DNA of 41,745 nucleotides from an uncultured Verrucomicrobiota bacterium (lineage in GTDB: Bacteria > Verrucomicrobiota > Verrucomicrobiia > Limisphaerales > UBA9464): NCBI GenBank assembly GCA_903916195.1, contig CAIWVP010000145.1, forward strand, positions 1 through 41,745, written 5' to 3'. The notes under the pieces were generated by a model. That model did no database searches, was not told the DNA's origin, and saw nothing but the letters and a program-made list of their open reading frames with translations. Within the stretch, counting starts at the first letter, position 1. Each line of letters starts with the position of its first letter. The translations under genes and the position numbers were made by a program. This document shows, in pieces, positions 3,995 through 33,640 of this stretch.

Positions 3995-5233
3995 ATGTCG
4001 CTGGGTCCAGTGAAGCCGCTCTCCATCATGGTCGTCGCCGGCGAGCCGAGCGGGGACGAACTCGCCGCCGAGCTCATCCGCGCCCTGCGGGCCGAAGCAG
4101 GACCGTTCGCACCGACGTTCTTCGGCGCAGGCGGCGAGAAGATGGCCACGGCCGGCGTCGAGATCGTGGTCGACCTGACCCGCCACGCCGTCATCGGCCT
4201 GCCGACGTTCGCCGAATACCGGAAGTTCCAGCGCCTCCGAGACGATCTGGTCGCCTTGGCCGCCGCACGCGCTCCGGATGTCGTGGTCGGTGTCGATTTC
4301 TTCGCCTTCAACGGCAGCTTGGCCGAGCGCATCCGCACGATGTCGGAGCGGATGTCCGGCCCTTTCCAGAACTGGCGGCCGAAGCTGGTACAATACGTCT
4401 CGCCGCAGGTCTGGGCATCGCGGCCCGGACGCGCCCGCCGCTTGGAGCGCACCCACGACCTCTTGCTGAGCATCCTGCCCTTCGAGCCGGCCTGGTACGC
4501 GGCGCACGCCCCGCGCCTCCGGGTCGAGTTCGTGGGGCATCCGATCGTCGAAAGGCACGGGACCGGGGAAGTTTCAGGTCTCAGGTTTCAGGTTCCAGGT
4601 TCCGTCGAAGGCGGCGTGCCGGACGGGACGGGGCACGCTTCCCCCGACCTGAAACCTGAAACCTCGAACCAGAAACTCCTCCTCCTTCCCGGCAGCCGCG
4701 CCGGCGAACTGCGCCGTCATCTCCCGGTGATGGTCGAAGCCGCCCGGCGCATCGAGGCGCAGACCGGCGTGACGTTGCAGATGGTGCTGCCGAACACCGC
4801 GTTGCTCGACCAGGCACGGCCGTTCCTGGCTCCCCTACCCCGCCTCCAGATCCAGATCGGAGGCCTGTCGGATGCGCTCCGTGCCGCGACCGTCGCGCTC
4901 GCTTCGACGGGCACGGTGACGCTTGAATGCGCTTGGTCCGGGGTCCCCACCGTCGCGATCTACCGGACCTCGCGGATCACTTATGAGCTCGGAAAGCGTC
5001 TGGTGACGGTGAAGTCCCTCGCCATGCCGAACCTGCTCGCCGGCGGGACGGTCATGCCCGAGTTCATCCAGCACGAGGCGACGCCGGAGAACCTGGCCCG
5101 GGCGACGCTCGCCCTGCTCGCCGATCCCGGCCGCCGTGCGACGATACGCGACCAACTGGCCGCCGTGGTCCGTTCGTTGGGCGGTCCGGGCGCGAGCCGA
5201 CGGGCCGCGCGAGCCGTCCTGTCGCTGCTCTGA
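3995..5233 (+). CDS. lpxB: lipid-A-disaccharide synthase LpxB with a palindromic-element insertion
   Basis: The product (412 aa) is the family 19 glycosyltransferase that joins UDP-2,3-diacylglucosamine to lipid X at the inner membrane. Family motifs are present: AGEPSGD near the N-terminus, VGVDFFAFN (the Asp is kept, the usual Pro replaced), SPQVWAS, FVGHP, LLPGSR, ASTGTVTLE and PNLLAGG. Between FVGHP and LLPGSR the normal linker is replaced by about 36 residues (193-228) encoded by a hairpin-forming repeat, so this linker is longer than in E. coli LpxB. The frame stays intact and all flanking motifs survive, so the protein is probably active. It converges with tgt, with only 4 nt between the stop codons. 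Confidence 0.92.
   Translation: MSLGPVKPLSIMVVAGEPSGDELAAELIRALRAEAGPFAPTFFGAGGEKMATAGVEIVVDLTRHAVIGLPTFAEYRKFQRLRDDLVALAAARAPDVVVGVDFFAFNGSLAERIRTMSERMSGPFQNWRPKLVQYVSPQVWASRPGRARRLERTHDLLLSILPFEPAWYAAHAPRLRVEFVGHPIVERHGTGEVSGLRFQVPGSVEGGVPDGTGHASPDLKPETSNQKLLLLPGSRAGELRRHLPVMVEAARRIEAQTGVTLQMVLPNTALLDQARPFLAPLPRLQIQIGGLSDALRAATVALASTGTVTLECAWSGVPTVAIYRTSRITYELGKRLVTVKSLAMPNLLAGGTVMPEFIQHEATPENLARATLALLADPGRRATIRDQLAAVVRSLGGPGASRRAARAVLSLL
4571..4676 (+). repeat. palindromic CAGGTTT-type element inside lpxB
   Basis: The left arm (4571-4604) is built from CAGGTTT-like heptamers. The right arm (4646-4676) is its reverse complement with about five mismatches over 31 nt. Inside lies a perfect 7 bp stem, GCGTGCC (4614-4620) with GGCACGC (4632-4638). 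The element is translated in frame as part of LpxB. A second copy of the same family lies at 32946-33067. No transposase gene accompanies either copy. Confidence 0.85.
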
Positions 5234-6479: not shown

Positions 6480-6658
6480 GTCGGCCCTTCGCGATGGCAA
6501 TCTGCATCAGCTGGCCCACGCCGGTCAGGTCGATGGTCGATAGTCGCGCACGGGTTCTTCTTCGCGATCTCGAGCTCGGCGTAGCCGGGCAGGAAGCTGC
6601 CGGAGTCGTCGCGCGGCCAGCCCAGTGCGGTCGGCGTGAGGTCGTCGGTGCCGAGAGT
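6480..6658 (-). pseudogene. fragment of pyruvate phosphate dikinase gene
   Basis: This stretch matches the C-terminal part of the intact ppdK of this window (about 10850-11022) at roughly 92% identity by eye, on the same strand. Translated pieces read [26 protein letters not shown] and [11 protein letters not shown], against [12 protein letters not shown] and so on in the intact protein. A 7 nt near-tandem duplication at 6532-6545 (GATGGTC then GATAGTC) shifts the frame. Neither the swivel His nor the catalytic Cys region is included. It is therefore a dead partial duplication about 4.2 kb from the source gene. Confidence 0.88.
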
Positions 6659-31382: not shown

Positions 31383-32264
31383 ATGGACACGCCGAAGCCC
31401 AGCGCACCGGCCGCCGAAGGTGCCGGCGAAGAGAAGCTGAAGATCTATCTCCTGCCGAACCTGTTCACGGCGGGCAACCTCTTCTGCGGTTTCCTCGCGC
31501 TCACCCGCATCGTCGAAGCCGACCCCGGAGCGGTCGATTTCAACTCCATCATCCGCCACGCCCTCGGCTACATCCTGCTCGCCTGCATCTTCGACCTGCT
31601 CGACGGGCGGGTGGCGCGGATGGGCGGCTACGAATCGCCCTTCGGCCGCGAGTTCGATTCGCTCGCGGACATCGTGAGCTTCGGCGTCGCGCCGGCGTTC
31701 CTCGTGCACCGCATCGTGCTGAAGCCCGTGTTCGTGAACCATCCCGAGGTCGGCTGGTTCATCGCCTCGCTGTACGTGATCTGCGGCGCCTTCCGCCTCG
31801 CGCGGTTCAACTGCCTCGCCGCCATGAGCAACGCCGGCGGCGGGAAATACTTCCTCGGCTTCCCCATCCCGATGGCCGCCGGCATGGTCGCTTCGCTCAC
31901 GATGTTCCTGATCTGGTTCGACGAGAAGGATTTCCCGGTCGGGACCTGGCGCTACGCGCTGCCGGTGATCCTGGTGTTCCTCTCGTTCATGATGGTGAGC
32001 GAGGTCAAGTACCCGACCTTCAAGAAGCTCGATTGGCGGACCCAGCGGCCGTTCGTGAAGACGCTGATCATCGCGCTCCTGATCGGCTCGTTCATCGTGC
32101 TCTGGCAGCAGATCCTGCCCGTGGTCGCGCCGCTGGTCTTCACCGCATACCTCGTCTACGGCTTCGTCCGCCCCAGCATCTCGCGGCGGATGCAAAAGGA
32201 GATCGAGGTGGACGACGACCCCGACGAGGGCGACGCGGACGGCGCGGCCGCGACGGGCAAATGA
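31383..32264 (+). CDS. pssA: CDP-diacylglycerol--serine O-phosphatidyltransferase
   Basis: The product (293 aa) makes phosphatidylserine from CDP-diacylglycerol and serine. The CDP-alcohol phosphotransferase motif reads DLLDGRVAR, with the later Gly, Asp and Asp in FGREFDSLAD. There are about seven hydrophobic segments and a highly acidic C-terminal tail (IEVDDDPDEGDAD). It sits between psd and a LysE-type gene, with a 4 nt overlap (ATGA) to the latter. Confidence 0.95.
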   Translation: MDTPKPSAPAAEGAGEEKLKIYLLPNLFTAGNLFCGFLALTRIVEADPGAVDFNSIIRHALGYILLACIFDLLDGRVARMGGYESPFGREFDSLADIVSFGVAPAFLVHRIVLKPVFVNHPEVGWFIASLYVICGAFRLARFNCLAAMSNAGGGKYFLGFPIPMAAGMVASLTMFLIWFDEKDFPVGTWRYALPVILVFLSFMMVSEVKYPTFKKLDWRTQRPFVKTLIIALLIGSFIVLWQQILPVVAPLVFTAYLVYGFVRPSISRRMQKEIEVDDDPDEGDADGAAATGK

Positions 32265-32935
32265 GGCTCGCCATGTTGGATTGGCAGGAACTCCCGTTGG
32301 ACGCCGGCCTCGGCATGCTGGCCGGCTTCATCACGTCCGCGCTCGGCGGACCGATCAACGTCACCATCGTGAACGAGAGCGCCCGCAGCGGCTTCCTGCG
32401 GGCCTTCCTCATCGCCGTCGGCGCGGTGCTGATGGAGACGATCTACTGCGCGATGGCGTTCGCCGGCTTCAGCTCGATCTTCCTCTCCCACACGGCCCAG
32501 GCGGTGATGCAGCTGACCAGCTTCGTGCTCGTGCTCTGGTTGGGGTTGAAGTACCTGCTGGCCGGCCACGTCCCCGGGGAAGGCCGCGTCGAGCGGATGG
32601 TCGAGAAACGGTTGAACCCGCACACGGCGTTCTGGATCGGTTTCGTCCGCGTCCTCGCGAACCCGGGCGTCCTGCTGCTCTGGCTCGGCATCACCGCGTC
32701 CTTGCTCTCCCATGGCGCGCTCGATCCCAACTGGTCCAGCAAGGGCGTGTTCTGCGCCGGCGTGGCCGCCAGCGGGTTGATCTGGTTCGCCGGTGTGAGC
32801 GCCGCGGTGTCGCGCGGGAAAGGACGCTTCTCGGTCAAGCTGCTGAGGACCATCTCGCAGGCCAGCGGCATCGTCCTGCTCATCACCGCCGTCGTCATCG
32901 CGGTGCGGCTCGTGCAGCTATTGGCGAAACGGTGA
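32261..32935 (+). CDS. LysE/RhtB-family membrane transporter
   Basis: The product (224 aa) has about six hydrophobic segments. It shows the family N-terminal pattern GPINVTIVNESARSGF, then FLIAVGAVLMETIYC and a middle NPHTAFWIGFVRVLANPG. LysE-type proteins export amino acids or similar small molecules; the substrate cannot be read. Overlap with pssA puts it in the phospholipid operon, so a lipid-linked or serine-related role is possible but unproven. The repeat at 32946 follows its stop by about 10 nt. Confidence 0.85.
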   Translation: MRLAMLDWQELPLDAGLGMLAGFITSALGGPINVTIVNESARSGFLRAFLIAVGAVLMETIYCAMAFAGFSSIFLSHTAQAVMQLTSFVLVLWLGLKYLLAGHVPGEGRVERMVEKRLNPHTAFWIGFVRVLANPGVLLLWLGITASLLSHGALDPNWSSKGVFCAGVAASGLIWFAGVSAAVSRGKGRFSVKLLRTISQASGIVLLITAVVIAVRLVQLLAKR

Positions 32936-32945
32936 GGCGGCGGGG

Positions 32946-33067
32946 TCAGGTTTCAGGTTTCAGGTTTCAGGTTTCAGGTTTCAGGGCCAAGGCGCAGGCG
33001 CCCATCGCCGTGGGCCGTGAGGCGGCAGGACCTACGACTTGAAACCTCAAACCTTAAACCTGAAACC
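32946..33067. repeat. palindromic CAGGTTT-heptamer element, second copy
   Basis: The left arm holds five perfect tandem CAGGTTT units (32947-32981). The right arm (33037-33067) is a diverged reverse complement. The centre is GC-rich. It has the same arms as the element inside lpxB, but a different centre. It lies between the LysE-type gene and the sigma factor gene. Confidence 0.85.
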
Positions 33068-33130
33068 CGCCCCGCCCCCGAGTCTCGTAGACAAATCTTC
33101 CCGTGCTGCGCGTCCTCCCGTTGTCCATCC

Positions 33131-33640
33131 ATGTCCCCGCGCCTCCTGGAACGCCTGTACGATGACCACGCCGATGCGTTGACGGGCTTCCTCATGGACC
33201 TGACCCGCGACCCCGCGGACGCGCGGGACGCCCTCCAAGAGATCTTCATCAAGCTCGCCACCCGCCCCGAGCTGCTCGACGGGGTGCGCGAGGAGCGGGG
33301 CTACCTGCTCCGCCTCGCGCACAACCTCGCCATCGACCTGATCCGTCGCCGCGCCGCCCGCTCCCGCGCGCACGATGGCCTGGCGGAAGAGTCGCCAGGT
33401 ATCTTCGCCACCACGTCCGATCCCGACGAGGCCGCCTTCCGCGATGAGCTCGCCAAAGCCCTCGGCGCGCTGCCCATCGAGCAACGCACGGTGGTCCATC
33501 TCAAGCTCTGGGAAGGCCTCACCTTAAAGGCGATCGCCGAGACCTTGAAGATCCCGCCGAACACAGCGGCCAGCCGTTACCGCTACGGCGTAGACAAACT
33601 GCGGGCCCTGCTACGTCCCCTTTACGACGAGATCCGGTGA
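33131..33640 (+). CDS. ECF-type RNA polymerase sigma factor
   Basis: The product (169 aa) has sigma region 2 (residues 8-75, with DARDALQEIFIKLA and the -10 binding YLLRLAHNLAIDLIRRR). Region 4 (about 110-165) carries the HTH LTLKAIAETLKIPPNTAASRYRYGVDKLR. It is probably a sigma-70 of the extracytoplasmic-function group controlling its own cluster. The start is ATG at 33131 (MSPRLLERLY); upstream codons are translated repeat. The next genes are a short one-TM protein and a large membrane protein. Confidence 0.93.
   Translation: MSPRLLERLYDDHADALTGFLMDLTRDPADARDALQEIFIKLATRPELLDGVREERGYLLRLAHNLAIDLIRRRAARSRAHDGLAEESPGIFATTSDPDEAAFRDELAKALGALPIEQRTVVHLKLWEGLTLKAIAETLKIPPNTAASRYRYGVDKLRALLRPLYDEIR

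Follow-up and report, generated by a model that had tools for sequence, protein, structure and literature searches.

A heptamer hairpin within the lpxB reading frame

The window analyzed here, a stretch of 41,745 nucleotides, carries at positions 3995..5233 of the plus strand the gene lpxB, which encodes a lipid-A-disaccharide synthase of 412 aa (PF02684, E 6.7e-63; PDB 5w8s). Within its reading frame, and on the same strand, lies a hairpin composed of a left arm of four to five imperfect TTTCAGG-type heptamers (4571..4603), a spacer or loop region of 41 bases (4604..4644), and a right arm of inverted, likewise imperfect heptamers (4645..4675). An earlier reading of this DNA, made from its letters alone (hereafter the sequence-only reading), had placed a palindrome of CAGGTTT heptamers in the linker of lpxB. 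Direct reading bears this out, with inverted arms at 4571-4675, as do the 14-mer statistics: the window holds 12 matches, at no more than two mismatches, to a 14-mer of TTTCAGG type as against 0.05 expected, and 0 of 100 shuffles reach 12. The folding z-score of the hairpin stretch is -3.96. The palindrome stands, with the qualification that its arms in lpxB are imperfect.

Only one of the six frames across the hairpin is free of stop codons, namely that of lpxB itself, and the open reading frame continues through the insert, unshifted, as had been proposed. The further proposal that catalytic motifs are untouched is upheld only insofar as the flanking VGHP and LLPGSR motifs are intact. In translation the insert corresponds to residues 193-228 of LpxB. 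An AlphaFold run on 20 LpxB sequences gives a pLDDT of 87 overall and values below 50 at residues 191-221, which comprise most of the insert, and thus predicts that the insert-encoded stretch is largely disordered.

The LpxB linker in relatives

LpxB is present in 55 of 58 genomes, the present one included; 30 of these loci were taken, and the linker between VGHP and PGSR was readable in 29, belonging to the present genome (G000) and 28 relatives. The linker measures 56 residues in G000 and in the 91% identical relative G003, and 30-46 residues in the other 27. The hairpin is shared with G003 only, being absent from 27 of the 28 relatives with a readable linker. When these 29 linkers are compared together with two solved LpxB sequences, the insert residues are found only in G000 and G003, and no conservation of them in distant LpxB proteins is seen. 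The hairpin probably entered the linker in a common ancestor of these two genomes.

Between G000 and G003, lpxB differs in 100 of 1236 columns (three of which are the stop codon missing from the match); of the 64 columns of the hairpin arms 8 differ, and of the 41 of the spacer 9. Selection on the arms was considered and not adopted, as the count of differing third positions in the arm cores (0/14, vs 50/376 elsewhere) is not significant. The extent of the inserted stretch is ambiguous, because deletion of the whole hairpin would leave a linker of 21 residues, shorter than that of any relative (minimum 30). Part of the spacer may therefore be native, or native linker may have been lost. A candidate alignment of the spacer, as native linker, with the linker of G002 looked good by eye, gave p 0.16 over 500 shuffles, and was rejected; four of the 27 non-sharing linkers (G005, G062, G069, and G015) align to the spacer at p < 0.05, where one or two would be expected. 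In a genome of another family (G051, locus L069), a different heptamer pair is visible by eye within the same LpxB linker, GAATTCA on the left and TCGGAAA on the right, its arms being only partly complementary to each other.

A sister copy and related arms in the same genome and genus

A second copy lies between genes on the plus strand, with a left arm at 32941..32988, a spacer of about 48 bases at 32989..33036, and a right arm at 33037..33070. Upstream is a gene for a LysE-type translocator (32033..32935, plus strand, PF01810) and downstream an open reading frame for an ECF sigma factor (33017..33640, plus strand, PF04542/PF08281). Judging from the sequence, the true start of the latter is probably the ATG near 33131, which would place the gene behind the hairpin. 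The non-coding sister copy that had been suggested at 32946-33067 is thus real, its arms spanning 32941-33070, and its folding z-score is -8.67. An empty-site comparison for this copy found that the flanking genes are not neighbors in relatives, where they are separated on two contigs or stand at the end of one.

Further copies of the arms, on whose existence the sequence-only reading had staked its account, do exist: across the genome the TTTCAGG arm pattern with up to two mismatches matches 48 places, as against 8 for the reversed control. Four inverted heptamer pairs occur in 691 kb sampled from this genome: besides those of lpxB and the sister copy there are two pairs built of other units. 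At each of the periods 5, 6, 8, 9, and 10, 0-1 inverted pairs are found there. No inverted heptamer pairs were found in 150 kb of E. coli K-12. In relatives the same search gives a less clear picture, and inverted heptamer pairs do not prevail everywhere: 400 kb of G007, a member of the same genus, hold 0 inverted heptamer pairs and 3, 2, and 2 inverted pairs at periods 6, 8, and 10, while 400 kb of G061, partly chosen for TTTCAGG, hold one inverted heptamer pair, eight inverted pairs at period 6, and 11 heptamer pairs in direct orientation. A search for a 21-mer of the TTTCAGG unit, one mismatch being allowed, matches 5 of 96 relatives, the present genome included. G007 holds 158 matches to a GGACTTT array pattern that had served as the reversed control of this 21-mer search; the units in use among near relatives are thus different ones.

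TTTCAGG hairpins in other phyla and in other protein genes

A scan of GTDB genomes for a strict inverted TTTCAGG hairpin, in which the pattern demands a short spacer, returned at least 120 stretches. Many of the 80 matches listed are from Flavobacterium, the others including Acidobacteria, Pyrinomonadaceae, Anaerolineae, Planctomycetota, Kiritimatiellae, Desulfobacterales, Wenzhouxiangella, and Bacteroidales; Rickettsia is absent among these 80. In 20 of 20 genomes, each chosen for holding the strict hairpin, the 14-mer count runs from 4 to 382, the reversed control totaling 3. In the phylum of the present genome the strict hairpin occurs in 0 of 288 genomes, and the present genome itself fails the pattern because its arms are imperfect. 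The idea of a hairpin family belonging to Verrucomicrobia is not supported, the strict form having been found in none of these 288 genomes but in many other phyla.

Five of the 120 strict hairpins lie inside open reading frames that extend 50 residues or more beyond them in both directions, the other 115 lying outside such frames. Four of the five have Pfam support and, with names taken from Pfam and PDB matches, reside in UvrA, a copper-type P-ATPase, NuoG, and CoaBC. All four are read in the same frame as in lpxB, yielding the peptide FQV...LKPE. In CoaBC the hairpin encodes residues 147-170, in the interval that separates the domain at 1-141 from that at 175-358, a placement like that in LpxB; for the copper-type ATPase, the structure alignment stops before the hairpin.

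UvrA offers the opportunity to compare occupied and empty sites. The index protein shows a gap of 19 residues at the hairpin relative to PDB 2r6f. Thirteen genomes of the index Anaerolineae family were surveyed, 12 loci were read, and 11 of these were parsed (L450 was left out). Four alleles, including that of the index genome, bear the insert (+17, +18, +23, and +18 residues), one is decayed (+14), and six are empty. The difference between occupied and empty alleles is the whole hairpin, spacer included. No target-site duplication is evident by eye at the UvrA junction.

S23 genes between inverted heptamer arrays

S23 (PF05635), the 23S-rRNA intervening-sequence protein, is a four-helix bundle, and proteins of this kind are widespread. 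All 18 genomes searched for PF05635 hold it, at 2-27 copies each, many of these genomes having been chosen for such repeats; it occurs in 0 of 14 control genomes. By sequence S23 matches PDB 2gsc (XCC0516 of Xanthomonas) and 2rld. The family has been reported to form a pentamer of four-helix bundles, and its proteins are described as having no known function, in PMC4990558.

We scanned 73 S23 loci, 65 of which have an S23 open reading frame, and scored the 60 that remained after removal of duplicates and weak matches; these are partly dependent, as orthologs from sister species are included. The control set comprised 925 genes from three genomes of the same order as the present one. S23 genes are linked to inverted heptamer arrays: an inverted heptamer pair is present in the flanks of 33/60 S23 loci and of 0/925 control genes. 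At period 8 the corresponding numbers are 9/60 and 4/925, and at periods 5, 6, 9, and 10 inverted pairs occur at 0, 1, 0, and 0 of the 60 S23 loci; direct heptamer pairs occur at 7/60. With periods 6-8 pooled, inverted pairs are found at 43/60 S23 loci vs at most 4/925 controls, which leaves 17/60 S23 loci lacking an inverted pair even at these periods. Restricted to the order of the present genome, the figures are 16/31 at period 7 and 23/31 at periods 6-8. The sequence-only reading was right in describing an in-frame palindromic insertion and missed that hairpins of like build flank S23 genes. The association could also run in reverse, if S23 genes insert into hairpins already present or favor them.

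Six S23 loci of the present genome were scored, of which two have arms at period 7 and three at periods 6-8; TTTCAGG arms are found at 0 of the 7 S23 loci read there (of 8 matches). No S23 open reading frame was found in the 120 strict-hairpin loci either, as is to be expected of a pattern that demands a short spacer. The S23 stop codon falls within a 7- or 8-mer array in 26 of the 60 loci, and a perfect inverted TTTCAGG array presents TGA in every frame within three units. At L346, L351, L356, and L335 a complete small hairpin stands upstream of S23 and a further array behind the gene, so the full form may consist of hairpin, S23, and array. Neither a target-site duplication nor a product of excision was observed for the hairpin elements. 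Octamer-like arrays, for example CCCACTCG, accompany the S23 genes of L390 (G007) and L379 (the present genome), the unit length not being fixed at 7.

The two forms within one genome, and a site of changing unit

Arms of the TTTCAGG type occur with and without S23 in the Wenzhouxiangella genome G106, which with 382 TTTCAGG 14-mers ranks highest of the 20 genomes counted. A manual count over 312.8 kb gives 33 TTTCAGG arrays, 18 of which form nine inverted pairs, with 15 lacking a partner in the stretch read. One inverted pair encloses S23 (L437, 5784-6274), the other interiors measuring 48-239 bases. Two neighbors on the same contig have the same arms and TTTT junction without S23; by eye, an AAGG start and the TTTT junction are common to the S23-bearing copy and several S23-less copies of G106. 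Ends shared with a gene-bearing element in one genome, as expected of a MITE, are present in G106, and were not found in the present genome (7 of 8 S23 loci read). Eleven hand-picked elements were compared, comprising the nine G106 pairs, L176 (also G106), and L238 from another Wenzhouxiangella. Some of the interiors share short motifs, such as 72% over 68 bases, some of these matches being nested GGTTCCG repeats; the flanks, taken up to 150 bases, show no match to one another.

An intergenic site in Flavobacterium, matched in 96 of 101 genomes, was read at 30 loci, with the unit classes assigned by eye. Eight loci have GTTTCAR, ten AAAGTCN, four GTTTAAA, and three other units, while five are of a GGTTGAT type with an S23 gene; L335 and L336 are confirmed as S23 by HMM, and L330, L332, and the partial L343 by eye. 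The strict score detects inverted arms at 20 of the 30 loci, and seven of the ten that fail it (L328, L329, L334, L338-L340, and L344) are of the AAAGTC type. At L317, L333, and L325 the unit differs in both arms, from GTTTCAG to GTTTAAA, with the loop partly kept, again by eye. Such joint change of both arms suggests that slippage and strand-switching keep the arms alike.

Comparison with known systems

The sequence-only reading likened the insert to the Rickettsia palindromic elements. These are described in PMC10969869 as palindromic, in-frame insertions into unrelated genes (Ogata 2000, 2002, as cited there). The likeness is one of behavior, known by description: here, too, palindromic DNA sits in frame in unrelated genes and encodes a recurrent peptide (FQV...LKPE). 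In contrast to the Rickettsia elements, the arms here are tandem heptamers, the unit varies between elements, there is a link to S23, other taxa are involved, and few strict hairpins are in open reading frames (5/120). The comparison holds for in-frame insertion of a similar peptide into unrelated genes; the interpretation was of the right kind, and drawn too narrowly.

The 23S rRNA intervening sequence (IVS) of Coxiella has terminal inverted repeats, an S23 open reading frame, and tandem heptameric repeats beside it, according to PMC4990558. The lpxB and sister copies share with such IVS/S23 elements, which RNase III cuts out of the transcript, their inverted repeat ends. On the other hand, the elements considered here reside within a protein gene (lpxB, the frame of which is open throughout) and between genes, often without S23; the copy in lpxB and its sister enclose no S23 open reading frame, their spacers measuring about 41 and 48 bases, and the lpxB copy is not located in a 23S rRNA gene.

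Heptamer repeats have been described in other settings, too. PMC4692102 reports 70 and 75 inverted pairs of GGGAATC heptamers in two Xanthomonas genomes; these, too, are heptamer arrays partly in inverted pairs, but they are treated as G-quadruplex repeats, and the term S23 is absent from that paper, although one of the S23 structures (XCC0516, PDB 2gsc) is from that very species. TAACTGA heptamers are recorded in Beggiatoaceae, Cyanobacteria, and Bacteroidetes in PMC4679880, again a case of one heptamer common to distant phyla. Simple heptamer repeats (SSR/STRR) likewise have tandem 7-base units. Avd, of the diversity-generating retroelements, is a related four-helix bundle: its model NF033474 matches an S23 of the present genome at 3.8e-9, which is below the cut-off of that model, and homology of Avd and PF05635 is suggested in PMC10053308. 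Unlike Avd systems, the elements here occur without a reverse transcriptase in the present genome and in six of the eight others searched. Among the titles and abstract openings of the open-access literature searched, none connects inverted arrays of heptamers to S23 genes located outside rRNA.

Origin of the lpxB insert

We read the lpxB insert as a short copy, lacking S23, of a hairpin element that ends in inverted tandem arrays with a unit of 7-8 bases and in its full form encloses one S23 gene; we put the probability of this reading at about 60%. The S23 protein would bind the hairpin arms, as DNA or as RNA, and so help the element to spread, the copying or joining being done by the host's enzymes of replication or repair, while slippage and strand-switching between the arms would keep the two alike. 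Within genes, only stop-free copies of a length divisible by three would survive, preferably in linkers, and the insert in lpxB may have survived by virtue of its stop-free frame, its length, a multiple of three, and its placement in a mostly disordered loop. That S23 moves the element is something we infer; we know of no transposase-like activity of S23.

The principal rival is growth in place, in which a short native inverted repeat was expanded by 7-base slippage and its arms copied by strand-switching, with no mobile element at all. In the samples of the present genome and of G007, exact tandem arrays most often have period 7, although looser arrays of periods 6 and 9 outnumber it there, and an earlier survey recounted in PMC4679880 ranked heptanucleotide repeats first among long repeats in the majority of genomes. 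The long direct arrays in the G061 stretches (partly chosen for TTTCAGG), the by-eye unit changes in both arms of the Flavobacterium site with its partly kept loop, and, in lpxB itself, the linker length together with the four of 27 linkers aligning to the spacer at p < 0.05 would also fit such growth. What it leaves poorly explained is that S23 genes sit between such arms, that the insert in UvrA is an entire hairpin with its spacer, and that the TTTCAGG unit recurs at unrelated sites in unrelated phyla; we therefore think it unlikely, if a serious contender. Alternatively, a hairpin selected for its role as a functional RNA or as a terminator-like structure may have been caught in lpxB by accident. 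This would accord with the 115 of 120 strict hairpins that lie outside open reading frames extending 50 residues to either side and with the S23 stop codon inside an array at 26/60 loci; as the lpxB arms show no clear excess of conservation over the remainder of the gene between G000 and G003 and in-gene copies in UvrA decay, we hold this improbable.

More improbable still is a REP/REPIN-type element moved by a Y1 (RAYT) transposase or by a reverse transcriptase. REPs are marked by GTAG/CGTC tags, as the title of PMC3733652 has it. Y1 transposases are indeed present in 11 of 12 such genomes, the present one included; but G106, with the most TTTCAGG 14-mers of the 20 genomes counted, lacks a Y1 match, and reverse transcriptase (PF00078) is found in two of nine genomes, being absent from both the present one and G106. 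Finally, the linker of LpxB varies in length (30 to 46 residues in 27 relatives), and one might regard the insert as ordinary variation of a fast-evolving linker in which the heptamers are coincidental. This is scarcely credible in view of the 12 window matches vs 0.05 expected, the fold scores, the existence of the sister copy, and the other heptamer pair seen by eye in the G051 linker.

A broader proposal can also be entertained, which we advance tentatively and at somewhat less than even odds. S23 proteins would define a large, transposase-less class of mobile hairpins with inverted ends of 7-8 base units; the unit would be rewritten in both arms together, such that the palindrome is kept while the sequence drifts; copies lacking S23 would give rise to in-frame protein insertions in numerous phyla; and the rRNA IVS would be one specialized branch. 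The placement of S23 genes within inverted heptamer arrays gives these proteins, to which no function is assigned, a testable role, and suggests one source for the heptamer repeats that were reported independently from an rRNA IVS, from Xanthomonas, and from other bacteria. It also shows how conserved proteins may gain loops from selfish DNA in organisms other than Rickettsia.

Mixed and drifting heptamer arrays

Contig boundaries fall in or near TTTCAGG arrays at G000:C154:40-118, L429, L433, and L437, and short-read assemblies may thus break at these arrays, so that copy numbers may be underestimates. In G061 (L151, L149, and L165) long direct heptamer arrays are seen, along which unit variants drift, with few inverted pairs. 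The 400 kb of G007 (L124, L126) show AGATGGG, AGCATCC, and GGACTTT arrays side by side, and in the present genome single intergenic spots (L094, L095) mix several heptamers, namely GGTCTGG, TTTCAGG, and CGTCACG. Within the window, a weak array of GGTCGAT heptamers lies at 6526-6548, near the start of the tgt gene.
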